Shown here one piece after another: positions 4,451 through 20,112 of a stretch of DNA of 64,000 nt. Under the pieces are notes generated by a model that was given only the letters and a program-made list of their open reading frames with translations, did not search any database and was not told where the DNA came from. Within the stretch, counting starts at the first letter, position 1. Each line of letters starts with the position of its first letter. Origin of the DNA: an uncultured Psychroserpens sp. (GTDB lineage: Bacteria > Bacteroidota > Bacteroidia > Flavobacteriales > Flavobacteriaceae). The translations under genes and the position numbers were made by a program. The stretch covers positions 124,001-188,000 of the forward strand of contig NZ_CANMVN010000005.1 of assembly GCF_947501425.1 (NCBI RefSeq), read 5' to 3'.

Positions 4451-4458
4451 AAAAGTGT

Positions 4459-5769: not shown

Positions 5770-5809
5770 CAGTAAAAATTTGTTGTACAAAAATAGTTTT
5801 GGAAATCAT

Positions 5810-5853
5810 CAAAGTCAGTAACACTAATCACTTAGTTTTGTAACCTATGTTAC
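5810..5853 (-). promoter_or_regulatory. Crp/Fnr-type activator site plus -7 element, efflux operon
   Basis: The palindrome GTAACATAGGTTAC (read on the minus strand, 5853-5840) is followed after exactly 22 nt by TGACTTTG (5817-5810), one mismatch from TAnnTTTG. The geometry is identical to five other promoters in the window and fits class II activation, with the site centred near -41.5. A perfect but differently placed TAnnTTTG (TATTTTTG, 5795-5788) lies closer to the gene and is an alternative -7 element. Confidence 0.7.
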
Positions 5854-5984
5854 TTTAGAACATTTAAATACATTTGAATAGGCTATTTTTGATTGCATTT
5901 TCATACGTCTAAAATATATGAGCTATGTAAATACTGCAATGATAATGGTCAGGTATATAGATATAGTAAACTTTTATATAACGT

Positions 5985-6015
5985 AAAAAAGCACACAAAT
6001 ACATGTATGCTTTTA
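5985..6015 (-). terminator. Weak candidate terminator after the peroxiredoxin gene
   Basis: The arms AAAAGCA (5987-5993) and TGCTTTT (6008-6014) can form a short stem just downstream of the peroxiredoxin stop codon, followed on the minus strand by a T-run. The stem is only 7 bp, so this is tentative. Confidence 0.4.
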
Positions 6016-6036
6016 CATAATGACAATGCTAACTGC

Positions 6037-6762
6037 TTAATCTTTTAAAACTTCATTTAGCACAACATCTTTATCCATTTTTTTAGTACAGAAAAACCAA
6101 TCTTCACATTCTAAATCATCTGTTCCCGTCATACGTTCTTCAGCAACACCGCATGAACCTGCAGGAGACACAATAACATCATCACCTGGATTCCAATCAG
6201 CAGGAGTAGCAACATTAAATTTATCAGAAGTTTGCATCGCAATTAGCGCTCTGTATAACTCATCAAAATTTCGACCTAAACTTAAAGGGTAATATATAAG
6301 GGCTCGGACAATTCCTTCAGGGTCAACAAAAAATACAGCTCGCACTGCTTGTGTTTTACTCTCACCAGGTTGGATCATACCATACTTCTTAGCGATCTCC
6401 ATAGAAATATCTTCAATTAAAGGGAATTTAACCTCAATATTCTCCATTCCCTTGAATTTAATTTTATCCTTAATGGTTCTCAACCAGGCAATATGACTAT
6501 ATAAGCCATCTATTGATAAACCTATAAGGTTACAATTAGCCTTTTTAAATTTCTCTTCCAGATGTGCAAAAGTCATAAACTCAGAAGTACATACTGGAGT
6601 GAAATCTGCTGGATGACTAAATAAGATGGACCATTCTCCTTTATAGTCTGAAGGGAAATTAATTTCACCTTGAGTTGTTATGGCCTTAAATTCTGGAGCC
6701 TTATCACCTATCCTTGGTATTGATTGAATCATTGTTTCATCTATTGTTTCAGTTGTGTTCAT
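6037..6762 (-). CDS. Peroxiredoxin, 1-Cys Prx6-type
   Basis: This is a thiol peroxidase that reduces hydrogen peroxide and organic hydroperoxides; family members can also act on persulfides. The peroxidatic cysteine is C58 in PADFTPVC. It has the long C-terminal Prx6 extension, with RALIYYPLSLGRNFDEL and a late cysteine pair region (GSCGVAEE, ECEDWFFCTKK). At 241 residues it is about 20 longer than the typical 1-Cys enzyme, partly from an N-terminal extension. It is a single-gene unit. Its promoter carries a one-mismatch copy of the palindrome found at the sulfide genes, again 22 nt from the -7 element, so it probably belongs to the same regulon. That would make sense because sulfide oxidation produces reactive sulfur and oxygen species (inference). 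Confidence 0.93.
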   Translation of the reverse strand: MNTTETIDETMIQSIPRIGDKAPEFKAITTQGEINFPSDYKGEWSILFSHPADFTPVCTSEFMTFAHLEEKFKKANCNLIGLSIDGLYSHIAWLRTIKDKIKFKGMENIEVKFPLIEDISMEIAKKYGMIQPGESKTQAVRAVFFVDPEGIVRALIYYPLSLGRNFDELYRALIAMQTSDKFNVATPADWNPGDDVIVSPAGSCGVAEERMTGTDDLECEDWFFCTKKMDKDVVLNEVLKD

Positions 6763-6797
6763 AATAGTATTACTTTATTGTTAATAATTACTGAACA

Positions 6798-6841
6798 TAA
6801 AATTAACTCACAAACCTTTGTTTATATGCAACTTAAGTTAC
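6798..6841 (-). promoter_or_regulatory. Crp/Fnr-type activator site plus -7 element, peroxiredoxin
   Basis: The palindrome GTAACTTAAGTTGC (minus strand, 6841-6828) has one mismatch to GTAAC-N4-GTTAC. Exactly 22 nt later comes TAATTTTA (6805-6798), a TAnnTTTR -7 element. The predicted leader is about 30 nt. Confidence 0.65.
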
Positions 6842-6934
6842 CTAAGCCATTTAGTTTTTTAATGTTGAAATAGATAATCTCAATTCCAGAAGAAGAAGAA
6901 GAATGTTGTTTCGTTAAAAGTAATACTCAATTTT

Positions 6935-6978
6935 GTGACATTTGTCACATAATAAAATATCAAGGAATTCTATCTTTG
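6935..6978 (+). promoter_or_regulatory. Crp-type site and -7 element of the copper-receptor operon
   Basis: GTGACATTTGTCAC (6935-6948) sits inside the perfect 16-bp palindrome TGTGACATTTGTCACA, which is an exact match to the E. coli CRP form TGTGA-N6-TCACA. Exactly 22 nt downstream is TATCTTTG (6971-6978), a perfect TAnnTTTG. The spacing equals that of the GTAAC sites of the sulfide regulon, but the half-site is GTGAC instead of GTAAC. The predicted start of transcription is at about 6983, one base before the ATG, so the mRNA may be nearly leaderless. Confidence 0.7.
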
Positions 6979-6983
6979 TAACA

Positions 6984-7361
6984 ATGAAAATAAGCACCTA
7001 CATTTTTTCCATTTGCTTCACTTCTCTCCTACTATTTAATGCCGCGAGAGTTACGCTTACTTATGCTTATTACGAATACGACCCTATTGGTTTCATTGAG
7101 GCACTTTGCGAAAATCAAGACAAACCAGAATTGGCTTGTAATGGAAAGTGTCAATTGATGAAAGTTTCAGAATCACAAAACAAAGATCAAAATACACCTG
7201 AAGGTATTCTTGATTTCAAGGAACTCATTTTATATCAAAATTCGCCTAACACTACTATTCTAACCCATAAAGAATGGATTAAAAAGCAAACTGTAATTAC
7301 TTACCAGAGTTTATATTCTTATATATCCACTTACGTTTGTTTTCATCCGCCTCGAGTTTAA
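6984..7361 (+). CDS. Small secreted/membrane protein with Cys motif, partner of the copper receptor
   Basis: This 125-residue protein has an N-terminal hydrophobic segment (residues 4-28), then LCENQDKPELACNGKCQL with cysteines at about 42, 52 and 56, and ends in CFHPPRV. I place the start at 6984 because it gives a proper signal/anchor segment; an upstream ATG at 6942 lies inside the palindromic regulator site. It sits 63 bp before a copper-type TonB receptor and shares its promoter. Cys-x3-Cys spacing together with that neighbour suggests metal, perhaps copper, handling at the cell envelope. I know no characterised function, so this is inference from context. Confidence 0.75.
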   Translation: MKISTYIFSICFTSLLLFNAARVTLTYAYYEYDPIGFIEALCENQDKPELACNGKCQLMKVSESQNKDQNTPEGILDFKELILYQNSPNTTILTHKEWIKKQTVITYQSLYSYISTYVCFHPPRV

Positions 7362-7424
7362 CTTTTAAATATCGCTGGTAGCAACTACTACCGAAATTAA
7401 AAGTTAAATCAAACAATACTATAA

Positions 7425-9527
7425 ATGAAAACATTTTATGGTGCGCTACTATGTGCACTGCTATCTGCTGTGTCTTATGGTCAAGAAAAAAAAGAGATCA
7501 AAAAAGATACTACAAAACAAAAAATAACAGTTTTGGACCAAGTTATCATTACTGGAAACAAAAGAATTGACCCTATTTTGACTTCTGTTTCAAATAACTA
7601 TTCTGAGCGAATAGTTCAACCCAAGAACGTGGCTGATCTATTCAATTCTATAAATGGATTCTCTTCAATAAAGAGAGGTAATTATGCCATTGATCCATCT
7701 TTTAGAGCCTCACAATATGAGCAATTAAATATTCAATACGATGGCGGAACAAAAGTCATGCATGCCTGTCCGAATAGAATGGATCCTATAACAACACATA
7801 TCATTCCTGAGGAAATAGCTAAAATTGAAATCATTAAAGGTCCGTATACTGTAAGATATGGTGCTACTTTTGGAGGAATCATAAATATGGTCACACAAAA
7901 ACCAGATTATGAAGACTATGGTTTACACGGGAAGGTTTCCGCAGGTTATGAGAGCAATGGCAATTCGATAGTGAATTTGGCACAATTACAATACATTAAA
8001 GAAAAATTTGATATTGTTACCAATGCTGGATATAGAGATTTTGGTAATTATGAAGACGGAAACGGCATTGAAATTCCTTCATCCTTCAGAAGCACCGATT
8101 ACGGTTTTAAAATTGGTTATAACTTTAGTGATGTACAACGTTTACAAGTACACTGGAGACAATCTTTTGGGCGTGATGTGTTGCATGCAGCTTTACCTAT
8201 GGACACTGAATATGACAATAGTAGTATATTGTCTTTGGACTATAAATTAGATGATATTGGAAGGGTTGTTAATTCATTAACTGCTAAAGTATATTATAGC
8301 TATGTAGACCACTTAATGACCAATATTAATCGGCCTTCATTTATGATGACAGAGGCCTCCTCTGCTGTTGATGCCACAACTATTGGAGGAAAACTGGAGC
8401 TCAACTGGAAACCATTTAAAAACTGGAATGTATTCTCTGGTTTAGACGCCATGCATATTGCCAGAGATGGTAACAGACAACGTTTAGTTAAAATCATGAA
8501 TGGTAACCTACTACCAATGCCTATGAGTTTTACAGATAAGGTTTGGCAGGATTCTTATATTACAGACATAGGACTATTTACAGAAGTCAAATACACTATT
8601 AATCCAAAAACAATTTTTACGGCAGGCATTAGATATGACAATGTGGTTTCTGATATTCAGGATCCTGAAGCTGATTTTGCTGAATTATACGACCTTAAAA
8701 AACGAACAGAGCATAACGTTAGTGGAACGCTATCTGTAAAAAAGTTGATTTCAGACAACTTCACTCTTGAAGCAGCATATGGAAGAGGTGTTCGTTCGGC
8801 TAATATGATAGAGCGGTATATCAATCACTTTAATGTTGGACAGGATCCATTTGAATATATAGGGAATCCCAACTTAAAAGCTGAAGTCAATAATCAATTT
8901 GAAATTGGGTTTAAAGGAAGAGAGAAACTTAAAAACGGTTTCAATAGCTTTACGTATGAAGCTGCGTTTTATTATTCGTTTTTTGAAAATTATATTGTAG
9001 GTATTATTGATGAAACACAGACCAGAAAGTTCATGCCTATGGCACAACCGCAAAACCCGAAAGTGTTTAGAAATCTTAATGAGGCCTACAAAACAGGATT
9101 CGAGATTTCAGCTAGTGTAAATTTCCTGAATGATTTTGTTTTTAAAACTGACTTTGCTTATGTCTATGCAAAAAATAAAGACCTATCAGAATCATTGCCA
9201 CTTACTCCGCCTTTGACATCTAGAATTCATTTCGGATTTGAAAAAGACACCTATTGGGTAAACTTGCAATATAATCTTGTGTCAAAGCAAGATAATATTT
9301 CCAGAAGTTTTGGCGAAACAGAAACTGATGGCTACCAAACTTTAGATTTCCGTTTTGGTATGAAACCAATTAAAAACGTAACCTTAGGTCTTGCAGTAAT
9401 TAATGTATTTGATGAAAATTACAATAACCATTTAAACTTCTCTTTTACAAATCAAGAGAATTTTGGAAGGACTCCAATTACTGAACCTGGGCGTAACTTT
9501 TCTGCATTCTTACAGTATAAATTTTAA
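7425..9527 (+). CDS. TonB-dependent receptor, copper type (OprC/NosA family)
   Basis: This 700-residue outer-membrane active transporter has a signal peptide (about residues 1-19), a plug domain (about 35-160) with the usual IEIIKGPYTVRYG...GGIINMVTQKP, and a beta barrel ending in the aromatic FSAFLQYKF. In the plug, HACPNRMDP contains C115 and M119 in the CxxxM arrangement described as the copper site of OprC. VLHAALPMD (about 252-260) offers His and Met where that family has its other ligands. Length also matches OprC/NosA. It is probably a copper uptake receptor serving copper enzymes. It follows the small Cys protein and ends at a strong bidirectional terminator. Confidence 0.85.
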   Translation: MKTFYGALLCALLSAVSYGQEKKEIKKDTTKQKITVLDQVIITGNKRIDPILTSVSNNYSERIVQPKNVADLFNSINGFSSIKRGNYAIDPSFRASQYEQLNIQYDGGTKVMHACPNRMDPITTHIIPEEIAKIEIIKGPYTVRYGATFGGIINMVTQKPDYEDYGLHGKVSAGYESNGNSIVNLAQLQYIKEKFDIVTNAGYRDFGNYEDGNGIEIPSSFRSTDYGFKIGYNFSDVQRLQVHWRQSFGRDVLHAALPMDTEYDNSSILSLDYKLDDIGRVVNSLTAKVYYSYVDHLMTNINRPSFMMTEASSAVDATTIGGKLELNWKPFKNWNVFSGLDAMHIARDGNRQRLVKIMNGNLLPMPMSFTDKVWQDSYITDIGLFTEVKYTINPKTIFTAGIRYDNVVSDIQDPEADFAELYDLKKRTEHNVSGTLSVKKLISDNFTLEAAYGRGVRSANMIERYINHFNVGQDPFEYIGNPNLKAEVNNQFEIGFKGREKLKNGFNSFTYEAAFYYSFFENYIVGIIDETQTRKFMPMAQPQNPKVFRNLNEAYKTGFEISASVNFLNDFVFKTDFAYVYAKNKDLSESLPLTPPLTSRIHFGFEKDTYWVNLQYNLVSKQDNISRSFGETETDGYQTLDFRFGMKPIKNVTLGLAVINVFDENYNNHLNFSFTNQENFGRTPITEPGRNFSAFLQYKF

Positions 9528-9546
9528 AGGCTATAAATAGTAAAAC

Positions 9547-9580
9547 AAAAAACGCTCACTTAACATGTGAGCGTTTTTTT
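9547..9580. terminator. Bidirectional rho-independent terminator
   Basis: AACGCTCAC (9551-9559) pairs with GTGAGCGTT (9567-9575) around a 7-nt loop, flanked by an A-run on the left and a T-run on the right. It serves the copper receptor (+) and the convergent membrane protein gene (-). The same stem recurs at 10471-10497. Confidence 0.9.
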
Positions 9581-9585
9581 TGTAC

Positions 9586-10350
9586 TTAAGAATTTGCAGG
9601 AATAAAAATTGATTTAATTCTATCAATAACGCCTTGGAGCATACTGAATATGGCATCGGAAGAAAACCCACCAATGAGAGCTAGTACGCTTTTATTAAAA
9701 AGATTTATACTGTTGGGATCAGTGATATATACAGATAGTATTTCTGATAATAACAATCCTGCGATAATTCCCAAAATTACCTGAGCCATATATTCAATAG
9801 ATTCTTCTGGTAATAAGGTACCTTTCTTCAATGAATTACTAACACTCTTTAATAAATAGAAGGTTACTCCAAGTCCTGCTATTGCAGATAAATAACCGAT
9901 ATTCAATAGTAATTTCATACCATTATTATGCATGATCCCTTTATCAAGAGAATCGTTATTAACATTTGGAGAAAGTCCTGTAATAATAAATATAACTAAA
10001 AACAAAACTGCTAAAATAATGAGATTTCTGACTAGCGGTAGACTTCCCAAAACAAATCTGCTTTTTGATTTTTCATGGAGTTTTTTAGAAAACTCAATCG
10101 ATTTTGGAGTCGCTGGAGCAATATTTTTACACAACAAATTATGTACATTAATTAAGTCATCCACATTACTGTCTTGAATTAGTGAATTAATATCTGTATT
10201 GATATTTATTCCATTATAAACAGCATAAGATAACATATTATTAATCTCCTTACTCATTTCATCAATCACCTCTTTGGAAATTCCTGGTTTAGAGATAACA
10301 GTTTCTTTTACCGCAGAAGGTGCTTTTGAGCTTGAACTAGTCGTTGTCAT
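9586..10350 (-). CDS. Unknown membrane protein
   Basis: A 254-residue protein with a cytosolic-looking N-terminal half (about 1-105, Ser/Lys-rich tail then helices) and about four membrane segments near residues 108-126, 147-167, 187-207 and 221-239. I do not recognise a family. The middle segments resemble the helices of small bacterial membrane-bound phage- or stress-type proteins, but no catalytic motif is visible. It is a single-gene unit bracketed by two terminators with the same stem sequence, which leaves it transcriptionally isolated from both neighbours. Confidence 0.7.
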   Translation of the reverse strand: MTTTSSSSKAPSAVKETVISKPGISKEVIDEMSKEINNMLSYAVYNGININTDINSLIQDSNVDDLINVHNLLCKNIAPATPKSIEFSKKLHEKSKSRFVLGSLPLVRNLIILAVLFLVIFIITGLSPNVNNDSLDKGIMHNNGMKLLLNIGYLSAIAGLGVTFYLLKSVSNSLKKGTLLPEESIEYMAQVILGIIAGLLLSEILSVYITDPNSINLFNKSVLALIGGFSSDAIFSMLQGVIDRIKSIFIPANS

Positions 10351-10467
10351 GGTTTTTAATTAAAGTATTAAAATTGCTTAAAATTAATTACTCATCTAGT
10401 ATAAAAACCAAGTATAAATACTGTATTACTATTTTACGTATTTTTACTTTTAGGGAGAATATATTAC

Positions 10468-10500
10468 AAAAAACGCTCACTTTTTCAGTGAGCGTTTTTA
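10468..10500. terminator. Rho-independent terminator with the same stem as 9547-9580
   Basis: CGCTCACT (10474-10481) and AGTGAGCG (10487-10494) form the stem, with A-run and T-run flanks. It lies after the DUF4870 gene (minus strand) and upstream of the unknown membrane protein. Confidence 0.85.
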
Positions 10501-10521
10501 TTTACCTCTTTATAAAAATAA

Positions 10522-10857
10522 CTAACTAATAAAATTAAGAGATAAAGGATATCTTGGTGATTCGCCGTGACTTGCTCTAATTGCATTTATTATTGGAAAA
10601 ATAAATGATAATATTCCAAGAACAATCAAACCAGCTATTCCTACTAAAACGAAGACCAATGGAATACATATCAAGCTATAAATTAATACACTTAATTGAA
10701 AGTTGACAATATTCTTGCCTTGTTCATCCATTTGGTAGACTTTTTCCTTTTGTGTTGCCCAAATGACTAACGGGACTATGAGTCCGCCAAACCCAGTAAT
10801 AAAAGTAAGTAACTGACTCAAATGCGTTAACACTATAAGTTGATTATCTTGTTTCAT
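10522..10857 (-). CDS. DUF4870 family small membrane protein
   Basis: This 111-residue protein of the DUF4870 type has a conserved N-terminus (LIVLTHLSQLLTFITGFGGLIVPLVIW), a charged loop with DEQGKNIVNFQ, then two further hydrophobic segments and a short tail. I start at 10857 (MKQDNQL), since the ten residues upstream form an unlikely poly-Lys leader. The family is widespread and has no established function. It stands alone in front of a terminator. Confidence 0.85.
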   Translation of the reverse strand: MKQDNQLIVLTHLSQLLTFITGFGGLIVPLVIWATQKEKVYQMDEQGKNIVNFQLSVLIYSLICIPLVFVLVGIAGLIVLGILSFIFPIINAIRASHGESPRYPLSLNFIS

Positions 10858-10931
10858 GATTTTTTTTTGCTTTTTTTGATTGAACACCTATTGGACGTCA
10901 ATACGAACAAAATGTTACACTGTATTTAGAA

Positions 10932-13232
10932 TTATTTTATAACCAACTTCTTTACAACATACTCATTTCTAACTAATACTTTGACCATATAAAAACCAGA
11001 AGGCAGATTTAAAGTAATAACCTCTGCATTGTTGATATCGCTTTTAAATACGTTTTGTCCAGTAATACTATAGATTTCAATTGCACCTTCTTCTATCATC
11101 CCAGCTATCTCGATTTGGTTTTTTGCAGGATTTGGTGAGATGATGATTTGGTTGAAATTATTTACATCTGATACTCCAAGAGTTTCTTCAACCGTAAAAG
11201 TACCTGTTACCGAAATAGAATTGAGACAATCATCGGTTAAATCAAAAGTCACAGAAACTATTTGATTACATGATATTGTGGCTGGTCCATCATGAGTAAC
11301 CAATGCATCTCCACATAAATCGGATCCTAAAAAACCAGCTAACCAATTATCGTATGCCTCTTGAATTGTATCAGAACAATCGACGGTTACATCTTCAGGA
11401 ATATTATCCCAAACAGGATCTGTAGTATCTTCAATAGTGAAAGTTGCATCTTTAAAAATCTCATTTCCGCAGTCATCAGACAGGGTAAATCTAACCGTCT
11501 CTGAACCTGTTGCTCCACATAGATCACTTAAACCAGAGCTATTATTTGTAATGGTTGGTGTACCACAACCAACAGTTCCTGTAACACTATTTAGCCATGA
11601 ATTGAAAGCCGAATCAAAATCTGTAACATCATCACATTCAAGTATAATATCCATAGGCTCGTTGGTCCATCGTGGTCCTTCAAATTCTATTCTGACCACA
11701 TTACCTTGGAATATATTTACATAATACACAAACCCATCTAAAGGATTTTGCATCATGTGAACAATTCCTGATCCAAAATTTGCAGGAGCTAACTCAGAAA
11801 CATCACTAATCCAGTTTTGTGAGCCATCGGTTAATGTTGCAACGTTAATCCAGTTTCTAACATAATCTGTAAACAGGTATTTTCCTTCCATAGTAGTTCC
11901 AAGAGCATCTCCTACAACATAAACTCCAGCTATACCAGCATTTCCATTGAATTCAACACCTGTAGTTGGAGAGCCAAAATCTCCAATTCTAGGCGCTAAA
12001 GCTATCCCAGCAAAAAAAGTTGGAACACGTGCTTCAGGTTGTGATCCATGACGCCAGGCGACTTCTGGTCTGTCATGCACATATCGTCTTAGTTGTGGAT
12101 TAGGGTCGTCGTTAAATGAATTTGGTTGCGGACAATTATCTAAAAAAAGTTCGTCGTTTTCATCAGCATTAGTAGCACCACTATTAGCATAGCCATTAAG
12201 TTCTGTTTGCCCTTCATATATTGGCCATCCTCCATTCAAGCCAGGTTTATCAAAAATATGTAAATCTTCCCAAGTTCCCCATCCAACATCAGCGACATAA
12301 ATTATTCCAGGATCACCATCGTTTGGATCATTACTTCCAGATTCAGGTTGAATAGACATGCGAAATGGATGCCTTAAGCCCATAGCCCACATTCTGGATT
12401 TTGCTGAACGAGCATTTCCAGCTTCATAAAAAGGATTTGATGGAATTCCATCTCCCGTATTAGGATCAAGACGAAGTACTTTTCCGCAGAGAGAAGTAGG
12501 CATTTGACTTCTAAAAGCACCAACATTTTCTTCTGGTCTCATTATACCATCATCTATAGCCTGCTGAAAATAGGTTTCTGAAGCGCTACCAATATCTACA
12601 GAGTTATAACTTGCATTATCACCAGTTGACACAAGTAGTGTTCCATCATTTGCAAAGATCACAGTCCCACCTGCATGAGATTGGTGTGTAAGTGGTACTC
12701 CTGTGGAAACCGTCTCCCCAAGTAATACCGTTCTAGAACTATAATTGGTTGTGAGTGGGTTACTTCCAAGATTAAGTTGATATCGTGTAAGACGACTTAT
12801 GGAAGCTTCAAAGTAATCGTTATCATTTGGATCATAATCTGGTGTTCCAAAATTCATGAGGTGTTCTCTGTCTACCATATAATACATATAAACCAAACCA
12901 TTGGTATCAAAATCTGGATCTAAGCAAAAACTTGCGAATCCAAAATCTCTCCAATCACCTACTTCGTCGGAAATATCAAGCACAGGTGTAGTTTGCTTAA
13001 TATAGTCAGTACCATCCCAAACAGACACATATACATGTCCGCGTTTTTCCCAAACAAACATTTTTGTACCATCCTGACTAAATACAACACCCATTATGTT
13101 ATTATATCCAGATTGAACCTCTGTAACAGAATAGCCAGATGGTAATTGCGCAAAAACATTGGATAGAAGACAAGGTGATGTTAGAACAAATAAAATTATT
13201 CTAATATTGTAGAACATACGAGAGCAAAGCAT
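10932..13232 (-). CDS. Secreted PQQ-type glucose/sorbosone dehydrogenase, T9SS cargo
   Basis: This 766-residue exported protein has a signal peptide up to about residue 29 (an in-frame ATG five codons later, 13217, gives a more typical one). A six-bladed propeller of the glucose/sorbosone dehydrogenase family follows (about 30-510), with GLRHPFRMS, YVADVGWGTWEDLHI and GKYLFTDYVRNWI as family-like blades. Two related Cys-containing Ig-like modules come next (about 515-680). It ends in a type A T9SS sorting domain (IISPNPAKNQIEI ... VVKKLVIK), so it should be secreted or held at the surface. Family members oxidise sugars using PQQ; whether this one is active is not shown. It is a single-gene unit not obviously tied to either large cluster. 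Confidence 0.88.
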   Translation of the reverse strand: MLCSRMFYNIRIILFVLTSPCLLSNVFAQLPSGYSVTEVQSGYNNIMGVVFSQDGTKMFVWEKRGHVYVSVWDGTDYIKQTTPVLDISDEVGDWRDFGFASFCLDPDFDTNGLVYMYYMVDREHLMNFGTPDYDPNDNDYFEASISRLTRYQLNLGSNPLTTNYSSRTVLLGETVSTGVPLTHQSHAGGTVIFANDGTLLVSTGDNASYNSVDIGSASETYFQQAIDDGIMRPEENVGAFRSQMPTSLCGKVLRLDPNTGDGIPSNPFYEAGNARSAKSRMWAMGLRHPFRMSIQPESGSNDPNDGDPGIIYVADVGWGTWEDLHIFDKPGLNGGWPIYEGQTELNGYANSGATNADENDELFLDNCPQPNSFNDDPNPQLRRYVHDRPEVAWRHGSQPEARVPTFFAGIALAPRIGDFGSPTTGVEFNGNAGIAGVYVVGDALGTTMEGKYLFTDYVRNWINVATLTDGSQNWISDVSELAPANFGSGIVHMMQNPLDGFVYYVNIFQGNVVRIEFEGPRWTNEPMDIILECDDVTDFDSAFNSWLNSVTGTVGCGTPTITNNSSGLSDLCGATGSETVRFTLSDDCGNEIFKDATFTIEDTTDPVWDNIPEDVTVDCSDTIQEAYDNWLAGFLGSDLCGDALVTHDGPATISCNQIVSVTFDLTDDCLNSISVTGTFTVEETLGVSDVNNFNQIIISPNPAKNQIEIAGMIEEGAIEIYSITGQNVFKSDINNAEVITLNLPSGFYMVKVLVRNEYVVKKLVIK

Positions 13233-13408: not shown

Positions 13409-13430
13409 TTTCGATTTTACAAAACGAATT

Positions 13431-13577: not shown

Positions 13578-13640
13578 AATTTTAATTTAATACTGTAAAA
13601 ATACTTTATATGAATTATAAAAAACATGATATATATCATT

Positions 13641-13666
13641 AAAAAAGCATCTTTTTTAAGATGCTT
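13641..13666 (-). terminator. Rho-independent terminator of the SQR gene
   Basis: AAGCATCTT (13645-13653) and AAGATGCTT (13658-13666) form a 9-bp stem with a 4-nt loop. The A-run to the left gives the T-tract on the minus strand. Confidence 0.85.
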
Positions 13667-13689
13667 AACCACTAATGAATATTAGACTA

Positions 13690-14952
13690 TTATACCTCTT
13701 TACCTTTCATCATTTTATTCCAATACAGGTAAGGAAGCCCATACTTTTTAAGCATCCATAGTCTCCAATGTTCTTTCTCACTATTGAACACTAACATTTG
13801 CTTTAATTTAGGATCTGGAATAAAATTATTATCATAGTCAAATTCGGCTAGAATCATTTTACCGTAACCCGTAACCAGTGGACATGATGAATAACCATTG
13901 TAAGATTTACTTCCTTTTTTATTATGAGCTATGAGTTGTCTAATATTATCTGAAACCACAGGTACCTGTTTTCTTATGGCAGCACCTGTTTTTGCTGTTG
14001 GCAATGCAGCAACATCACCCAAACCGAAAATATTAGGATACGTATTATGTTGTAGTGTATGCTTATCGACATCTAACCATCCAGCTTCATTGACCAATGG
14101 AGACTCTTTAACAAATTTAGGAGCTGTTTGTGGTGGAGCTAAGTGTAACATATCAAATGGCATTTCAATAATTGACTCTCCAGACATGATCTCTCTTAAT
14201 TCGTTGTCCTCATTGATTACACATTTATTTTCTCCTGTTCCAACACCTCTAAATGTAACAATTTGATTATCTCCATCTATTTTAATAGGTGCATAAAACG
14301 GTTTAAAATGAATCCCATATCGACTAATGACTTTCATTAAACTTTCACGAATTTCTTTGACTCCAAAAATCACAGAACCAGGTGTAGCAAACACTACATT
14401 TGATTTATTTTTTAAGCCGTTCTTCTTTAAATAATCTGCAGCTAAATATGCAATTTTCTGAGGTGCACCACCACATTTTATTGGTGTTGTTGGTTGTGTA
14501 AACACCGCGTTTCCGCCTTTAAAATTTTTAAGCACTTCCCATGTATGCTTCGGATCTGTATAATTACTACAAACCACTCCTTTACCAAGAGACTCTGTTA
14601 AGCCTTCAATAAGAGATGTATCCATTACTAATCCTGGTGATACTATAAGATAATCATAAGTGATATTTCCATTCTCTTGAGTAGATACAGAGTTTTCTTT
14701 AGGATTAAACCCAGTAGCATAATCTTTGATCCAATCAACTCCTTTTGGCATTACAGAAGCCATAGAGCGTTTTGTTTTCTCAAAATCAAAAGTTCCTGCT
14801 CCAACTAAGGTCCAGGCTGGTTGATAATAATGTGAATCTGAAGGCTCAATTAAACCAATATCTAATGATTTATCTTTCGCTAATAGATTTGCGGAAGTCA
14901 TAATACCTCCGGTTCCACCTCCAATGACTAAAATTTGATAATGAGATTTCAT
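13690..14952 (-). CDS. sqr: Sulfide:quinone oxidoreductase, type II (SQOR-like)
   Basis: This flavoprotein oxidises hydrogen sulfide to the persulfide level and passes electrons to the quinone pool. It has the N-terminal dinucleotide motif VIGGGTGG, a second FAD-binding segment FGLGDVAALP, and the two redox cysteines in contexts matching mitochondrial SQOR: C160 in TPIKCGGAPQK and C357 in SSCPLVTGYGKMILAEFDYD. This points to type II enzymes, which hand the sulfane sulfur to a thiol acceptor, rather than the polysulfide-forming bacterial types. The C-terminus is amphipathic, fitting a monotopic membrane protein. It has its own Crp-type promoter and terminator. Together with the persulfide dioxygenase, rhodaneses and TauE it forms a full sulfide disposal route. 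Confidence 0.94.
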   Translation of the reverse strand: MKSHYQILVIGGGTGGIMTSANLLAKDKSLDIGLIEPSDSHYYQPAWTLVGAGTFDFEKTKRSMASVMPKGVDWIKDYATGFNPKENSVSTQENGNITYDYLIVSPGLVMDTSLIEGLTESLGKGVVCSNYTDPKHTWEVLKNFKGGNAVFTQPTTPIKCGGAPQKIAYLAADYLKKNGLKNKSNVVFATPGSVIFGVKEIRESLMKVISRYGIHFKPFYAPIKIDGDNQIVTFRGVGTGENKCVINEDNELREIMSGESIIEMPFDMLHLAPPQTAPKFVKESPLVNEAGWLDVDKHTLQHNTYPNIFGLGDVAALPTAKTGAAIRKQVPVVSDNIRQLIAHNKKGSKSYNGYSSCPLVTGYGKMILAEFDYDNNFIPDPKLKQMLVFNSEKEHWRLWMLKKYGLPYLYWNKMMKGKEV

Positions 14953-14988
14953 GCGTTTACTTTTAAATTAGTTAGTTTTCGATATTGA

Positions 14989-15032
14989 TAAAAATAAATG
15001 CCTTTTTTTGAACATAGCGTAACCTAAGTTAC
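14989..15032 (-). promoter_or_regulatory. Crp/Fnr-type activator site plus -7 element, SQR
   Basis: The palindrome GTAACTTAGGTTAC (minus strand, 15032-15019) is followed after exactly 22 nt by TATTTTTA (14996-14989). The predicted leader is about 32 nt. Confidence 0.75.
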
Positions 15033-15102
15033 ATAAACAACAAAACTCCATAATCAAATTGACTATAGAGTATCATTTTAATACTTTTAAATATCTCAAA
15101 GA

Positions 15103-15309
15103 TTACTTTTTGATCTTACATGTATTGATTCCGAATACGGTGTACAACGGACAAAAGTTTACCAAGCTTGTCAATACAAAAATAGCAGCCACAGCTATCA
15201 GTATATAAGCTAAAGTACCTTCAATAATACCTTGCCAATACAACACAGCTATAACTACAGCAGCTATCAATCTAATGATCCTATCAGAATTACCCATATT
15301 TACTTTCAT
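15103..15309 (-). CDS. DUF2892 small inner-membrane protein
   Basis: A 68-residue DUF2892 protein, with MGNSDRIIRLIAAVVIAVLYW, a second hydrophobic helix and the conserved NFCPLYTVFGINTCK end. In other bacteria this domain is found alone or fused to rhodanese (for example YgaP), which agrees with its place here as last gene of the rhodanese-cytochrome-thioredoxin-methyltransferase operon. The two cysteines in the tail are family-typical. It may help receive or channel sulfane sulfur at the membrane, but no activity is established. Confidence 0.9.
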   Translation of the reverse strand: MKVNMGNSDRIIRLIAAVVIAVLYWQGIIEGTLAYILIAVAAIFVLTSLVNFCPLYTVFGINTCKIKK

Positions 15310-15324
15310 ACTATATATTTTATG

Positions 15325-15909
15325 TTAGTCTTTCTTAACAAATTTAAAAAACAATTCTCTTCCTGTTCTTGACTCGTGAGAATTATAAGCGTCTTCCATC
15401 AGCTTAATATCAAAAACTGATTTGAATGTCTTTATATATTCAGCTTTCGAACCTCCAAAAGGTGGACGATCTTTGTACAGTGGTGCATCGAACAATAGTC
15501 CAACCAACTTTCCTTTATCAGACAACAGATCATTCATTTTAGATACATATTGTGATCTCAAATTAGGATTAATAGCACAAAAGAACGTTTGTTCAAAAAT
15601 TAGATCAAATGTCATATTCAATTCGAAGACATCTTGATTTAATAATTGATGCGACGGAAACTCGGGTACTCTCGATTTCAAGTTATCTAAAGCCGTCTTT
15701 GAAACGTCAACCACAAAGACGTTTTCAAATCCTTTATTAAACAAATACTCTGCTTCATAGGCATTTCCTCCTCCTGGAATCAAAATATTAAGAGACCTGT
15801 CTTTGAGCTGATCGATATAGGCTTTTAGAGGGGGAGACACCGCTCCTAAGTCCCAACCAATATCATTACTCTTATAACGATTATCCCAAAATTCTTTATT
15901 TAAATTCAT
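15325..15909 (-). CDS. SAM-dependent methyltransferase, TPMT/thiol-methyltransferase type
   Basis: This 194-residue class I methyltransferase has the thiopurine/halide-thiol methyltransferase signature: N-terminal FWDNRY and GWDLGAVSPPLKAYI, SAM loop NILIPGGGNAYEAEYL, then VFVVDVSKTAL. Relatives in plants methylate halides and bisulfide. Its ATG (15909) overlaps the thioredoxin TGA by one base (TGATG), so the two are coupled; a TTG one codon earlier is not needed. In a sulfide operon, methylation of hydrogen sulfide or a small thiol is a reasonable guess (inference). The alternatives are tellurite/selenite or thiopurine-like substrates, for which family members are also known. Confidence 0.85.
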   Translation of the reverse strand: MNLNKEFWDNRYKSNDIGWDLGAVSPPLKAYIDQLKDRSLNILIPGGGNAYEAEYLFNKGFENVFVVDVSKTALDNLKSRVPEFPSHQLLNQDVFELNMTFDLIFEQTFFCAINPNLRSQYVSKMNDLLSDKGKLVGLLFDAPLYKDRPPFGGSKAEYIKTFKSVFDIKLMEDAYNSHESRTGRELFFKFVKKD

Positions 15910-16205
15910 CAAAATGCTTCAGTGATTACATTGATAAGTTCATCTTTTTGAACCAGACCTGATTGTCTCCAAATTTGCTTTCCGTTTTGAAATAATAATA
16001 AAGTTGGTACACCTCTCACCTGATATTTGGCAGCAAGTGCTTGGTTTTTATCGACATCTATTTTTAATATTGAAACACGATCTCCCAAAGCATCTTTAAC
16101 CTCTTTAAGAATAGGACTCATCATCTTACATGGACCACACCATTCTGCAAAAAAATCAATGAGTACAGGTTTATCCTGATTGACTAACTCTAAAAATTTG
16201 CTCAT
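15909..16205 (-). CDS. Thioredoxin
   Basis: A 98-residue thioredoxin with the active site WCGPC (C23 and C26) in FFAEWCGPCKMMSPIL and the cis-proline loop RGVPTLLLF. There is no signal peptide, so it acts in the cytoplasm. It is in the rhodanese operon, 12 bp after the cytochrome gene and coupled by stop/start overlap to the methyltransferase. It probably reduces persulfides on protein or low-molecular-weight thiols generated by the rhodaneses and SQR. It is not the housekeeping thioredoxin by context, although sequence alone cannot exclude this. Confidence 0.93.
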   Translation of the reverse strand: MSKFLELVNQDKPVLIDFFAEWCGPCKMMSPILKEVKDALGDRVSILKIDVDKNQALAAKYQVRGVPTLLLFQNGKQIWRQSGLVQKDELINVITEAF

Positions 16206-16217
16206 ACCTGAGAAGTT

Positions 16218-17267
16218 TTATTTTTCAAAAGACACACTCCATATCCCTCTAACCTCATTTATATCATAGCCTATAGCTTTATCTTTAGGATATAATTTTG
16301 CTATAGTATTTAATGTCTCCACATTTATCATGGTTTTAGGTTTACCATGACATTGTAAACACATAGAATTTGTAATTATTGGATAATATACATTAACCTT
16401 ATCATCTGTTTCACTAACTATAGGTTTAATTTCTTGTTCATTTAAAAGTTGTCTTTTAAATTCTTTTATATAATTTAATTCTTCTGAATTTGCTGTATTA
16501 TTAGGGTTTCTTGGTTTATCTGAAGCTCTTTTTATCACAGCATTATGAACTAAAGCCATACTATCAGTCAACGGATAAGCCTCGCTATTACAAAACTCCA
16601 GAGCTTTTAAAGTCCCTTCGTTTTGTAATTTACTCATTAAATTTTTACCAAGAACTGATTTTGTGGTCAACGCATATTTCAAACCTCTTTCTCCAAATGG
16701 TAAATTTTCAAAATCAGACTCTACCTGTTGCTTATGCTTACCATTCCCCATACCATTTCCATGGCCTTTTCCTCCTTTACCTTTACCTTTTCCTTTTCCT
16801 TGGCCTTGACTTTGATGTTTACCTTTTTCAGAATTAAAATGGTCTTCAAACCACTCAGGTTGATCGATTTCAAATTCATATAAGTACTCACCAATTTGAT
16901 TAATCGTCTCTTCAGGAAAAGCTTGTTTTGGCATGATACCAAAACGTCTCACTGCACCTTTCATCTTGACATTTTCCTCGGTTGGGTTTTTGATCCAGTT
17001 TTGGAGCGCACTTACAAATTCCTCCTTAGTCATTCCGTCCTCAAGATAATGTTTTTTGACTGCAATCATTGGAGGTCCGATTCTATCATCATGACTAGCT
17101 GTTGGGCTATGACATATATAACAATTGGTCTCTAGTAATTTTTTTCCAGGATGGGTTATAGTATCTTTAGTTGTACTTTGTTCATAAGAAACATATTGTA
17201 CTTCCTTAGTGTTTTTACAACTGAAAACGAAAACTAAAGATAAGATACTCAATAGTGTTGTTCTCAT
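16218..17267 (-). CDS. Di-haem c-type cytochrome lipoprotein: cytochrome c domain plus DUF3365
   Basis: A 349-residue exported protein with lipobox C17. The first part is a class I-like cytochrome c domain with CYICH (49-53) and a likely distal Met in RRFGIMPKQAF (about 112). A very low-complexity Gly/Lys/Gln/His linker (about 145-180) follows. The C-terminal part is a DUF3365-like domain with the second haem site CLQCH (303-307). DUF3365 is known as a haem-binding sensor or electron-transfer domain. It is encoded 1 bp after a rhodanese and before thioredoxin, under the Crp-type promoter, so it is probably an electron carrier or redox sensor for periplasmic sulfur oxidation (inference). The linker corresponds to a run of CCTTTTCC-like repeats at about 16766-16803. 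Confidence 0.85.
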   Translation of the reverse strand: MRTTLLSILSLVFVFSCKNTKEVQYVSYEQSTTKDTITHPGKKLLETNCYICHSPTASHDDRIGPPMIAVKKHYLEDGMTKEEFVSALQNWIKNPTEENVKMKGAVRRFGIMPKQAFPEETINQIGEYLYEFEIDQPEWFEDHFNSEKGKHQSQGQGKGKGKGKGGKGHGNGMGNGKHKQQVESDFENLPFGERGLKYALTTKSVLGKNLMSKLQNEGTLKALEFCNSEAYPLTDSMALVHNAVIKRASDKPRNPNNTANSEELNYIKEFKRQLLNEQEIKPIVSETDDKVNVYYPIITNSMCLQCHGKPKTMINVETLNTIAKLYPKDKAIGYDINEVRGIWSVSFEK

Positions 17268-17268
17268 T

Positions 17269-17610
17269 CTATCTATAGTTTAAAATTCCACCTTGCAAAT
17301 CATATATTTCATTAAATCCCATATTGGCTAATTTTCTGGCTGTTTGACGGCTTCTACTCCCACTTCTACAGTAAACATACACAGGCTTTTCTTTGTCAAG
17401 TTTATCAAACTCAATATTAAAGCGTCCAGAGAAGAAATCTATATTCTTAGCACCTTTTAAGTGACCAGACTTAAACTCTTTTTGTGTTCTTACATCTACC
17501 AATTGAATGTTTTGAGATTCTACTTTAAGTTTAAACTCCATTGGAGACAGCAAAGTTACAGACTCATTTTGCGTATTTTTTTTTCCGAATAGGGCTGAAA
17601 TAAATGACAT
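17269..17610 (-). CDS. Single-domain rhodanese
   Basis: A 113-residue sulfurtransferase domain with active-site loop YCRSGSRSR (C81), the CRxGxR form that binds anionic or thiol acceptors, and the structural VDVRTQKEFKSGHLKGA. The N-terminus MSFISALFGKKN is polar, with no signal peptide. It is first in the five-gene operon (rhodanese, cytochrome, thioredoxin, methyltransferase, DUF2892) and has a Crp-type promoter. It likely carries sulfane sulfur between SQR-derived persulfide and the dioxygenase or thioredoxin. Confidence 0.93.
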   Translation of the reverse strand: MSFISALFGKKNTQNESVTLLSPMEFKLKVESQNIQLVDVRTQKEFKSGHLKGAKNIDFFSGRFNIEFDKLDKEKPVYVYCRSGSRSRQTARKLANMGFNEIYDLQGGILNYR

Positions 17611-17654
17611 ACAAGTATATTTTTTGTGTATTAAAATTCAAAAATTATTTAGCA

Positions 17655-17698
17655 TAAAATTAATTGATTTCGAGGGCTTTATTGGTAACCTTTGTTAC
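17655..17698 (-). promoter_or_regulatory. Crp/Fnr-type activator site plus -7 element, rhodanese operon
   Basis: The palindrome GTAACAAAGGTTAC (minus strand, 17698-17685) is followed after exactly 22 nt by TAATTTTA (17662-17655). The predicted leader is about 40 nt. Confidence 0.75.
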
Positions 17699-17702
17699 AC
17701 AG

Positions 17703-17736
17703 AAAAGCGCATCCTACTTAATTCGGACACGCTTTT
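17703..17736 (-). terminator. Hairpin terminator of the persulfide dioxygenase gene
   Basis: AAAAGCG (17703-17709) pairs with CGCTTTT (17730-17736), extended by GGA/TCC inside across two wobble pairs. It lies 23 bp after the dioxygenase stop and just before the rhodanese promoter, separating the two units. Confidence 0.6.
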
Positions 17737-17758
17737 ACCAACCAAAAAACTATGTATT

Positions 17759-19174
17759 TTATTTTAATGTTGACGGACAAACATAATCTGTTCTTTTAAC
17801 ATCTGTACTTTTTATGGCTCCATAGCCACCTGCAATATCAATAAGATTATGAATGCCTCTACTTTTTAAAATTGAAGCAGCTATAACTGAACGATATCCT
17901 CCAGCACAATGCACATAAAAGGTTTTATTATCAGGAAACTCACTTAAGTAGTCATTTAGGTAATCCAAAGGCGTATGTTTTGCTCCATCAATATGTTCTG
18001 CTGTAAACTCTCCTTGTTTTCTTACATCAAATATGACATCTTTATTCTCTGGATAACGTTTTGCAAACTCGTCGGCTGTAATAGAGGTCACCGTATCATA
18101 GTCCATACCTGATTTTTTCCAGGCTTCAAAGCTTCCATTCAAATATCCAACAACGTTATCAAATCCAACTCGCGACAAACGCGTTATAACTTCTTGCTCG
18201 CGACCTTTAGGAGTGACAAGTAATATAGGCTGACTTACATCTACAATCAATGCGCCTACCCAAGGTGCAAAATCACCATCAATACCAATAAAAATAGATC
18301 TTGGAATATGCCCTTTTATAAAATCATTTTGATGACGTACATCTAATATGATTGCCTCTGTTTCGTTGGCTGCAGCTTCAAAAGCTTTAGCTGTCATAGG
18401 GTTTTTAGATTTAGACATCACTTTGTCAAAGCTTTCATATCCTTTGATATTCATCATCACATTTTGTGGAAAATATCCAGGAGGTTCTGTAAGACCTTCA
18501 AGGAGCTCTTCTATAAACTCATCTTTGGTCATATCTGCCCTTAAGGCATAATTTACTTTCTTTTGATTTCCTAGAGTATCTGTTGTCTCTTTACTCATAT
18601 TCTTTCCACAAGCAGAACCTGCACCATGATTAGGATAAATGATAAGATCATCACTTAATGGCATAATTTTCTCTCGTAATGAGTCGTATAACAATCCTGC
18701 CAATTTCTCCTGAGTTAGATCTGAAACAATTTTTTGAGCCAAATCTGGTCGACCTACATCTCCTATAAATAAAGTATCTCCAGTGACGAGTCCGTGTTCA
18801 TTTCCATTTTCGTCAATCAACATATAGGTAGTGCTTTCCATGGTATGTCCGGGTGTATGAATAACTTTCACCTTATAATTACCAATGTCAAAAACCTGAC
18901 CATCTTCAGCCACAATAGCCTCATATCCTGGTTTAGCCGTTGGACCAAACACAATATCAGCTCCAGTTTTAGCTTTGAGATCTAAATGACCAGAGACAAA
19001 ATCGGCATGAAAATGTGTTTCGAAAATATATTTGATCTTAGCATCATCGAGTTTTGCCCTTTTAATGTATGGATCGACCTCACGAAGCGGATCTATGATG
19101 GCAGCTTCACCATTATTTTCTATATAATATGCAGCATGGGCCAGACATCCTGTATAAATTTGTTCTACTTTCAT
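17759..19174 (-). CDS. CstB-like persulfide dioxygenase-rhodanese fusion
   Basis: This 471-residue protein joins three parts. The N-terminal metallo-beta-lactamase domain (about 1-245) is of ETHE1/persulfide-dioxygenase type, with ETHFHADFVSGH (H54, H56, D58, H63), HTPGH (H110) and TGDTLFIGDVGRPDL (D133); H54, H110 and D133 are the expected iron ligands. The middle rhodanese (about 260-355) lacks a catalytic cysteine (its loop reads LLVTPKGRE). The C-terminal rhodanese has CAGGYRS (C423). This order, including the inactive middle domain, is that of staphylococcal CstB, which oxidises low-molecular-weight persulfides to thiosulfate/sulfite. It has its own Crp-type promoter and lies between TauE and the rhodanese operon. 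Confidence 0.93.
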   Translation of the reverse strand: MKVEQIYTGCLAHAAYYIENNGEAAIIDPLREVDPYIKRAKLDDAKIKYIFETHFHADFVSGHLDLKAKTGADIVFGPTAKPGYEAIVAEDGQVFDIGNYKVKVIHTPGHTMESTTYMLIDENGNEHGLVTGDTLFIGDVGRPDLAQKIVSDLTQEKLAGLLYDSLREKIMPLSDDLIIYPNHGAGSACGKNMSKETTDTLGNQKKVNYALRADMTKDEFIEELLEGLTEPPGYFPQNVMMNIKGYESFDKVMSKSKNPMTAKAFEAAANETEAIILDVRHQNDFIKGHIPRSIFIGIDGDFAPWVGALIVDVSQPILLVTPKGREQEVITRLSRVGFDNVVGYLNGSFEAWKKSGMDYDTVTSITADEFAKRYPENKDVIFDVRKQGEFTAEHIDGAKHTPLDYLNDYLSEFPDNKTFYVHCAGGYRSVIAASILKSRGIHNLIDIAGGYGAIKSTDVKRTDYVCPSTLK

Positions 19175-19202
19175 TGTTGTAATGTTTTAATTTTAACCGA
19201 AT

Positions 19203-19246
19203 TAAAAGTAGTACTATTTATAATTTTAAGATGTAACTAAAGTTAC
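19203..19246 (-). promoter_or_regulatory. Crp/Fnr-type activator site plus -7 element, persulfide dioxygenase
   Basis: The palindrome GTAACTTTAGTTAC (minus strand, 19246-19233) is followed after exactly 22 nt by TACTTTTA (19210-19203). The palindrome abuts the stop codon of the TauE gene. The predicted leader is about 24 nt. Confidence 0.75.
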
Positions 19247-19247
19247 A

Positions 19248-20051
19248 CTAGGATTTAGTTAACTCCTTGTAAATGATGTAAACACCCATGATTAGGACAA
19301 ACCAGCCAAAACCTTTTTTAAGTTTTTTTCCCTCGATAAACTTAGAGATATAAATTCCGATAAAGATTCCTACTATTGAAATTGAAGTAAACGTTAGGAG
19401 AAATCCCCAATCGATCTCTAAATTTTCGACATCACCAATAAACCCAATCAACGATTTAATAGCGATAATCAACAATGAAGTCGCAACTGCCTTTTTCATT
19501 GGCAATTTAGCAAGCAAAACTAAAGCAGGAATGATTAGAAATCCTCCTCCTGCACCAACTATTCCTGTTAATACTCCAACAACAATACCTTCAATAATAA
19601 TTAACGGATAATTATATTGAATCACTGTTTCTTCTCCGTTATCTTCTCGTTTGTTTGTAATCATTGAGATAGAAGCCACTAACATCACTATGGCAAAGAA
19701 TAGCATAATGGCAATATCCTTGGTGATTAAAAATCCTCCTACAGTAAATAATTCCTCAGGTATTGCAGGAACAAGATATTTTCTGGTAGCATAGACAGCT
19801 ATAAATGCAGGAATAGCAAAAACGATAGCAGTTCTAAAATCAACTAACCCTTTTTGTATATTTCTAATTGCGCCTACTAAAGCTGAAACTCCAACAACAA
19901 ATAAGGAGTATGCTGTAGCAGTTACTGGATTAATATATAATAAATAGACTAATATTGGCACAGTTAAGATTGATCCACCTCCACCAATAAGACCTAATAC
20001 CAATCCTATCAATAGTGCTCCAAAATAACCCAATAGTTGTTGAATTTCCAT
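19248..20051 (-). CDS. TauE/SafE family sulfite or sulfur-anion exporter
   Basis: A 267-residue integral membrane protein of the TauE/SafE family, with two related halves: N-terminal LLGYFGALLIGLVLGLIGGGGSILTVP-type and the repeat GVLTGIVGAGGGFLIIPAL. About eight membrane helices can be drawn. Family members export sulfite, sulfoacetate or related anions. Its place between the Crp regulator and persulfide dioxygenase, with a perfect Crp-type promoter, argues for export of sulfite or thiosulfate made by the dioxygenase. The staphylococcal cst locus has the same pairing. Confidence 0.92.
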   Translation of the reverse strand: MEIQQLLGYFGALLIGLVLGLIGGGGSILTVPILVYLLYINPVTATAYSLFVVGVSALVGAIRNIQKGLVDFRTAIVFAIPAFIAVYATRKYLVPAIPEELFTVGGFLITKDIAIMLFFAIVMLVASISMITNKREDNGEETVIQYNYPLIIIEGIVVGVLTGIVGAGGGFLIIPALVLLAKLPMKKAVATSLLIIAIKSLIGFIGDVENLEIDWGFLLTFTSISIVGIFIGIYISKFIEGKKLKKGFGWFVLIMGVYIIYKELTKS

Positions 20052-20068
20052 GTAGTAAATATTTCATT

Positions 20069-20112
20069 CAAAACTATATAGTATTTGAACCGTTTTTGGT
20101 AACCAAAGTTAC
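20069..20112 (-). promoter_or_regulatory. Crp/Fnr-type activator site plus -7 element, TauE
   Basis: The palindrome GTAACTTTGGTTAC (minus strand, 20112-20099) is followed after exactly 22 nt by TAGTTTTG (20076-20069), a perfect TAnnTTTG. This is the best copy of the composite promoter in the window. The predicted leader is about 13 nt. Confidence 0.8.

Follow-up and report, generated by a model that had tools for sequence, protein, structure and literature searches.

Does one regulator govern the genes for sulfide oxidation, efflux, peroxide defense, and copper handling that lie together in a 64,000-nt stretch of DNA from an uncultured Psychroserpens sp. (contig NZ_CANMVN010000005.1, positions 124,001 to 188,000 of the forward strand; hereafter the window), and if so, which one? 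An earlier note on this DNA described seven promoters in which a 14-bp palindrome stands at a constant 22-nt distance from a −7 box, and named the Crp/Fnr-type protein encoded at 20116–20748 as the likely activator. We consider it likely that this cysteine-bearing Crp/Fnr-family protein activates a sulfide-detoxification regulon, in which the sites, their spacing, their conservation, and their genes are established by computation, as are co-occurrence with the regulator and, with exceptions, class-level co-variation of specificity; binding, activation, and the signal we infer from the same sequences.

All seven palindromes lie where the earlier note had placed them: five are exact copies of GTAAC-N4-GTTAC, one (peroxiredoxin) carries a single mismatch, and one (copper) reads GTGAC-N4-GTCAC. 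At up to one mismatch, GTAACN4GTTAC occurs six times in the window against 1.37 expected, a count reached by none of the shuffles, and exact GTRACN4GTYAC occurs six times against 0.13 expected. The gap from palindrome to box is 22 nt in 7/7 cases. Six of the boxes (TAATTTTA, TATCTTTG, TATTTTTA, TAATTTTA, TACTTTTA, and TAGTTTTG) match TAnnTTTR in full, but the tolC box, TGACTTTG, matches only 5/6 consensus positions. TAnnTTT with G, A, or T as its next base is found 408 times on both window strands, at about 0.3% of positions, so that six full boxes sharing a single distance greatly exceed what chance would give.

The same arrangement recurs in relatives. The regulator protein was searched in 149 family genomes, 134 of which gave a match; 40 relatives with 63–81% identity constitute class A, and for each of them as much as 20 kb of surrounding DNA was fetched. 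These 40 loci hold 86 palindromes, compared with a mean of 0.69 and a maximum of 7 for the other 59 letter arrangements of the half-site, and full boxes number 65 at 22 nt and 8 at 21 nt. A joint set of 111 loci (class A plus 80 from a regulator-alignment scan of named genomes, minus nine class A duplicates) was chosen by the regulator gene rather than by the motif; many of its members are mutually related and so not independent, and palindromes were read in both directions. In this set, 244 palindromes compare with a mean of 2.15 and a maximum of 13 for the 59 permuted half-sites, at least one exact palindrome is present in 106/111 loci, and full boxes number 187 at 22 nt, 13 at 21 nt, 4 at 23 nt, and about 1.4 at other distances. 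In these loci the sites stand repeatedly before the same genes, which supports a shared Crp/Fnr-linked sulfur regulon whose sites and spacing, constant in the window as proposed, are kept across the family and beyond.

Target genes were collected at sites with no more than one mismatch (R or Y allowed at positions 3 and 12) exactly 22 nt from a box, which had to be full if the palindrome was mismatched and otherwise to match 5/6 positions. The 111 loci contain 274 such sites, of which 264 have a downstream open reading frame (ORF), falling into 25 clusters; labels were assigned by resemblance to window proteins or through Pfam matches of nine examples, and some short ORFs are probably spurious. 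Persulfide dioxygenase (PDO)/rhodanese genes follow 80 sites, TauE 55 (in 55/111 loci), YeeE/YedE 17, sulfide:quinone oxidoreductase (SQR) 16, a haem protein 15, TolC 14 (13 loci), peroxiredoxin 12 (11 loci), and cytochrome bd subunit I nine. Smaller groups are a heavy-metal-associated protein (6), DUF983 (6), what we take to be a DUF2892-like gene (5), an NrfD fusion (4), SulP (4), and thioredoxin (2); the remaining targets include, once each, the small copper-operon protein, a sulfite-oxidase-like molybdopterin protein, and TPMT; a rhodanese-labelled ORF follows 21 sites in relatives. PDO/rhodanese, TauE, YeeE, SQR, or peroxiredoxin genes account for 180/264 targets, and the GTAAC/GTTAC form for 72/80 PDO/rhodanese and 51/55 TauE sites. 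The cytochrome bd sites (L048 and eight others) read GTAAT..GTTAC in 7/9 cases, a consistent gene-specific variant.

Alignment of 187 sites, preselected for an exact palindrome and a full box, shows a T immediately 5′ of the palindrome (84%) and, two bases ahead of that T, A or T (94%); the palindrome's centre is A/T-rich, and T then G follow it directly (55% and 50%). Within the box a T is preferred, and A-rich DNA lies 3′ of it, while the remaining spacer is nearly free and no later position exceeds 0.2 bits. In mapped promoters of Flavobacterium johnsoniae the box occupies −12 to −5 (PMC6847099). With the box so placed, on starts mapped in that species, the palindrome would be centred at −41.5, in agreement with the earlier note, and the T-G would fall at −34/−33, where a partly kept T and G may represent the remnant of a −33 element. 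CRP and FNR occupy this same −41.5 centre when they activate class II promoters. Crp/Fnr proteins can also repress, and the palindromes could in principle be repressor sites, but a centre at −41.5 beside a degenerate −33 region is the generally known position of a class II activator, which makes repression very unlikely.

If the 20116–20748 protein is the activator, sites should accompany its relatives. PDO genes were scored for GTRACN4GTYAC with at most one mismatch and a box of at least 5/6 at 21–23 nt in class A, in class B (20 loci, L147–L166, regulators 46–53% identical), and in 19 comparison cases from genomes with no regulator match (8), a very weak one (5), or a distant one (6). A site precedes PDO in 21/33, 19/20, and 1/19 cases, respectively (Fisher p = 7e-8), giving 40/53 for the pooled near-regulator cases; a narrower criterion yields 16/33, 7/20, and 1/19. 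About 6 kb from the lone positive (L144, genome G127) lies a regulator of 40% identity. The class B site stands in front of PDO, with TauE located 52–141 nt 5′ of that gene. This co-occurrence supports the protein as the likely regulator of the sites, and it very probably acts at the palindromes, whose centre would lie at −41.5. Distribution of the cluster is uneven down to genus level: G045, of the same genus as the window genome, has no class A regulator, and its best match is 47% identical.

Another Crp/Fnr protein of the same genome could be the binder. Four own-genome proteins exceed the HTH_Crp_2 cut-off, and the paralogue at G000:C2:31440-32108 has the helix TSRPTLN, with a Pro181 of the kind that an earlier study ties to GTAACnnnnGTTAC (PMC1274295). 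Its presence does not track the sites: close orthologues (E below 1e-80) occur in G085, G141, G148, G096, G059, and G077, whose PDO genes lack a site, whereas G068, G115, G134, and G038 have sites and only weak matches (E above 1e-15), and by eye Asn replaces CRP Arg185 in its helix. The Pro181 paralogue was rejected as the binder, and we regard binding by any such protein as extremely unlikely.

Residue 183 of the regulator is equivalent to CRP position 181, which is tied to this motif in the same study (PMC1274295). Specificity was compared over 45 class-level loci, one of which (L303) is also in class A. Boxed sites beside Val183 regulators (22 loci) comprise 10 GTAAC, 1 mixed, and 0 GTGAC; those beside Glu183 regulators (23 loci) comprise 0 GTAAC, 7 mixed, and 3 GTGAC (GTAAC versus GTGAC, p = 0.0035, kinship ignored). 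Twelve of the 22 Val183 loci lack an exact GTAAC palindrome and 16/23 Glu183 loci lack a boxed site. All 20 class B regulators have Val183 in the same helix as class A, beside PDO sites (n = 19) of which five are GTGAC/GTCAC, one is GTAAC/GTTAC, and the rest are mixed or mismatched. Because Val183 stands there beside non-GTAAC sites, residue 183 does not fix the subtype, and class B contradicts it as a general rule; its class-level co-variation with the site, with exceptions, would make it at best part of the code.

The regulator itself (210 aa, 20116..20748, − strand; recognition helix TSRVVVSR) falls within the Crp/Fnr superfamily by PF00027 (39.2 bits, cut-off 27.5) and PF13545 (35.6 bits, cut-off 27), and is neither a CRP nor an FNR. 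The CRP model NF008732 gives 55.8 bits against a cut-off of 266, and CRP Glu72 (in what we take to be the CRP numbering) aligns by profile with Met79; the FNR model NF008365 gives 19.9 bits against 228, and there are only three cysteines (77, 83, and 84), with no four-cysteine Fe-S motif. With Met79 for Glu72 and Val in place of CRP Glu181, cAMP binding is unlikely. The cysteines presumably fall, placed by profile alignment alone, in the CRP stretch that holds the cAMP phosphate. In a search that did not require cysteines, Cys77, Cys83, Cys84, Arg182, Val183, and Arg187 are invariant in 61/61 sequences (the window, 40 class A, and 20 class B); among the 45 class-level loci Cys77 is present in 45, Cys83 in 44, and Cys84 in 34. 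Since Cys84 is kept in only 34/45, the core is C-x5-C. Among solved structures the closest relative is the Crp/Fnr regulator of PDB 3dv8 (profile E = 5.6e-20); two of its residues that align with Cys77 and Cys83 are cysteines as well, Ile stands in place of Cys84, and the C-x5-C of 3dv8_A may mean that the motif is wider than this subfamily.

From this conservation and the target genes, sensing via the conserved cysteines is inferred, the signal being sulfane sulfur (persulfide or polysulfide). A respiratory explanation competes here, in which the regulator co-regulates respiration as a sensor of oxygen, nitric oxide, haem, or Cu(I), and sulfur genes are drawn in because low oxygen is where the cell encounters sulfide. 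Close cysteines could bind metal, the target list includes genes of cytochrome bd, the haem protein, and the copper operon, and the relatives HcpR, DNR, and NnrR regulate nitrogen-oxide genes (PMC1274295). Sulfur or peroxiredoxin genes nevertheless make up the 180/264 targets counted above, Cys77, Cys83, and Cys84 provide no four-cysteine Fe-S motif, and no hcp was recognised by eye among the target representatives in the fetched loci, whole genomes not having been scanned for it; we regard such a sensor as unlikely, though worth keeping in view. The sulfane-sulfur reading may extend further: 93/149 class-wide genomes match below 1e-30 and none between 1e-30 and 1e-9, and there is perhaps an even chance that a Bacteroidia Crp/Fnr subfamily has converted the cyclic-nucleotide pocket to a sulfane-sulfur switch built on cysteines (C-x5-C, often C-x5-C-C), acting as a general sulfide/persulfide regulator whose targets span SQR, PDO, cytochrome bd, efflux, and perhaps copper uptake.

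Several points weigh against a regulon of this kind, among them the loss of Cys84 and the class B site subtypes just described. An exact palindrome is missing from 5/111 loci, at least 57/244 palindromes have no full box at 22 nt, and 20/427 other ORFs in class A loci also have a site by the same criterion, although this set still held true members such as YeeE. The regulator's own gene is preceded by a site in only 7 of the 111 loci, and five genomes with 32–36% identical regulators have no PDO site. TauE sites are found in 20/24 class A cases, 0/20 class B cases, and 0/6 cases without a regulator, a contrast that is not significant by itself (p = 0.07). Ten exact palindromes are present in the entire 3.70-Mb genome, five of these in one stretch of about 14 kb inside the window, with no genome-wide enrichment over the backwards-read pattern (10 versus 10); 4/5 of the other exact palindromes lack a box at 22 nt. 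Across the 149 family genomes the palindrome is rarer than the reversed-pattern control in 98, equal in nine, and commoner in 42. Enrichment is thus local and not genome-wide; counts without excess over the reversed pattern are uninformative for the regulon, and clustering and spacing carry the case.

The regulon genes of the window, on the − strand except for the copper operon, begin next to the regulator. The tauE palindrome GTAACTTTGGTTAC (20099..20112), 3 nt 3′ of the crp stop codon, and its box TAGTTTTG (20069..20076) precede a TauE/SafE-family sulfite exporter gene (19248..20051; PF01925, 156.7 bits). Palindrome GTAACTTTAGTTAC (19233..19246) and box TACTTTTA (19203..19210) precede a PDO-rhodanese fusion with a metallo-beta-lactamase fold and two rhodanese stretches (17759..19174; PF00753 and PF00581), its function assigned by resemblance. 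Palindrome GTAACAAAGGTTAC (17685..17698) and box TAATTTTA (17655..17662) stand before a probable operon of four genes named by Pfam (15325..17610): rhodanese (17269-17610), a Tll0287/cytochrome-c-like haem protein (16218-17267), thioredoxin (15909-16205), and a TPMT-family S-methyltransferase (15325-15912). An SQR-like flavoprotein gene (13690..14952; PF07992, with the best NCBIfam match, SQR_III_seleno, at 219.4 bits and below its cut-off of 525) follows palindrome GTAACTTAGGTTAC (15019..15032) and box TATTTTTA (14989..14996). The mismatched palindrome GTAACTTAAGTTGC (6828..6841) and box TAATTTTA (6798..6805) lead to a 1-Cys-type peroxiredoxin (6037..6762; PF00578 and PF10417, NF009668 above cut-off). 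Palindrome GTAACATAGGTTAC (5840..5853) and the 5/6 box TGACTTTG (5810..5817) precede the tolC operon (71..5790), with a TolC-like gene listed at 4459-5790, an HlyD-type adaptor named from position and sequence look only (3374-4450), and an RND permease (71-3265); the TolC start is probably the ATG at 5769, 21 nt 3′ of the listed 5790. The gene identities first proposed are close to those from Pfam, with RND, TolC, and the copper-receptor-like TonB protein matching NCBIfam models only below curated cut-offs.

The copper operon (two genes, 6984..9527, + strand) is the least secure member of the set. Its palindrome GTGACATTTGTCAC (6935..6948) is of the GTGAC subtype, as in relatives, and its box TATCTTTG (6971..6978) is followed 5 nt further by the ATG of a small protein with a hydrophobic N-terminus and a CNGKC motif (6984-7361), to which the Pfam and NCBIfam comparison gave no family. 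The second gene (7425-9527) encodes a TonB-dependent receptor resembling copper receptors; its TIGR01778 match of 253.5 bits favours the proposed copper-uptake label but falls under the curated cut-off of 472. Thirty homologues of the small protein, the window's included, lie in genomes with a regulator relative, and 13 have a site at 21–23 nt, nine of these exact GTGACN4GTCAC, the rest its variants, and none GTAACN4GTTAC. In 12 of the 13 (window 6971-6986; L247-L276) an ATG or GTG start lies 4–7 nt after the box, compared with 1/231, ATG starts only, for the ten largest other target groups. A start so near the box implies an mRNA that is leaderless or nearly so; in F. psychrophilum 5.5% of mRNAs are leaderless (PMC9723704). 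The copper-gene mRNA is probably leaderless, a conserved exception among the promoters of the set.

These features leave room for a separate GTGAC-subtype copper regulon under another factor, which we hold to be a tentative possibility. The subtype of its 13 sites, set against the GTAAC/GTTAC form of 72/80 PDO/rhodanese and 51/55 TauE sites, and the close start in 12/13 would fit it; against it, class B Val183 regulators adjoin GTGAC/GTCAC sites at 5/20 PDO genes, and the other three Crp/Fnr proteins above the cut-off have, by eye, no matching helix. Sites in 13/30 homologues with a regulator relative also compare with 0/11 in genomes with no or a distant regulator (≤43% identity), all of these being weaker homologues. 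Copper thus appears tied to the presence of the regulator through a distinct promoter type, possibly with another factor, and the operon's membership is weakened by its subtype and apparently leaderless mRNA.

Beyond the window, the own genome probably has at least nine regulon promoters, two more than the seven first described, all of which were found. A second sulfur cluster, YeeE-YeeE-PDO-HMA (G000:C4, L146 8670-11412), has the one-mismatch palindrome GTAACAATTATTAC 22 nt before the full box TATATTTG, just 5′ of YeeE. A sulfite-oxidase-like molybdopterin frame with a possible TTG start has an exact palindrome (G000:C5:276860-276873; L008, L300) with TATATTGA, a 5/6 box, at 22 nt. Sites with no more than one mismatch occupy 117 places in this genome; membership drawn from them is a lower bound, and more members may exist. 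GTNACN4GTNAC occurs at 35 sites, and of the 24 beyond the exact and copper sites that were checked for a box, three (L287, L118, and L120) match at least 5/6 box positions at 22 nt. At L287 (G000:C10:221428), GTGACTTTTGTCAC lies 22 nt before TAATTTTA, which gives a second GTGAC-type promoter, 5′ of a flavoprotein that by eye resembles a reductase; the L118 site is 441 nt 5′ of a TonB-receptor-like ORF. At L120 (G000:C2:330378), GTAACAAAAGTCAC lies 22 nt before GATATTTG, 5′ of an FNR-like regulator gene that is transcribed divergently from one resembling a metal ATPase (both by eye), where cross-talk between two Crp/Fnr proteins is possible. The search for cytochrome bd in this genome gave no match, a miss that does not prove absence.

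The mechanism that we propose joins these elements. A dimer of the cysteine-bearing activator would bind GTAAC-N4-GTTAC at the class II position and activate the housekeeping sigma factor of Bacteroidota at promoters that combine a TAnnTTTG −7 box with a mere trace of a −33 element. The residues that read sulfane sulfur would be Cys77 and Cys83, in many cases joined by Cys84. Targets would include at least SQR, the PDO-rhodanese fusion, the rhodanese/haem/thioredoxin/methyltransferase operon, TauE, peroxiredoxin, and TolC-RND, and probably the sulfite-oxidase-like gene and the second YeeE-PDO cluster; sulfide would pass through persulfide to sulfite, which would be exported or oxidised, with thiol repair alongside. 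PDO-like proteins match at E ≤ 0.001 in 149/149 family genomes, some weakly, which makes the question of their control broad, and the finding supplies a candidate regulator, a DNA code, a promoter geometry, and a target list. If true, this bacterial group would possess a sulfide-stress switch that places oxidation and sulfite-disposal genes under one regulator, and a thiol sensor within a family mostly associated with cyclic nucleotides, oxygen, or NO.

Several known systems come close to this one. E. coli CRP at class II promoters, as generally known, shares the two-domain fold, Arg180/Arg185 (kept here by profile match), and, if the box lies at −12 to −5 here, the −41.5 centre, and differs in Glu181 (Val here), in Glu72 (aligned with Met79), and in its sigma factor and −7 box. 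BigR and YgaV, of the SqrR/BigR type, are ArsR-type proteins. They reportedly likewise exert sulfide-responsive control of sulfur-dioxygenase-type or respiratory genes, but they are of another protein family and from other bacteria, and BigR is a repressor (PMC5823870, PMC9774250). Sulfide/sulfane-sulfur sensors of Bacillus licheniformis also regulate a sulfur-oxidation cluster; the accessible part of that report names the repressor yrkD and the nreB gene and no Crp/Fnr regulator (PMC9918477). At listing level, in open-access literature without preprints or regulon databases, no Crp/Fnr sulfide-oxidation regulon in Bacteroidota was found, nor any other regulator of sulfide oxidation in that phylum, with the phrase 'Crp Fnr' perhaps missing 'Crp/Fnr'. 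This suggests that the sulfur regulon has not been met in the literature searched, as the earlier note supposed; the motif, however, was already known as a prediction, GTAACnnnnGTTAC having been proposed in 2005 for HcpR2, an FNR-like regulator, upstream of hcp (Rodionov et al., 2005; PMC1274295). HcpR2, found in Bacteroides and others, is similar to the present regulator in its Crp/Fnr family, its motif GTAACnnnnGTTAC, and a helix position 181 that is not Glu, and differs in having Pro at 181 where Val183 stands here in 61/61 sequences, and in predicted regulons that consist mostly of hcp (none recognised by eye among the target representatives here) rather than of sulfide oxidation genes (PMC1274295).

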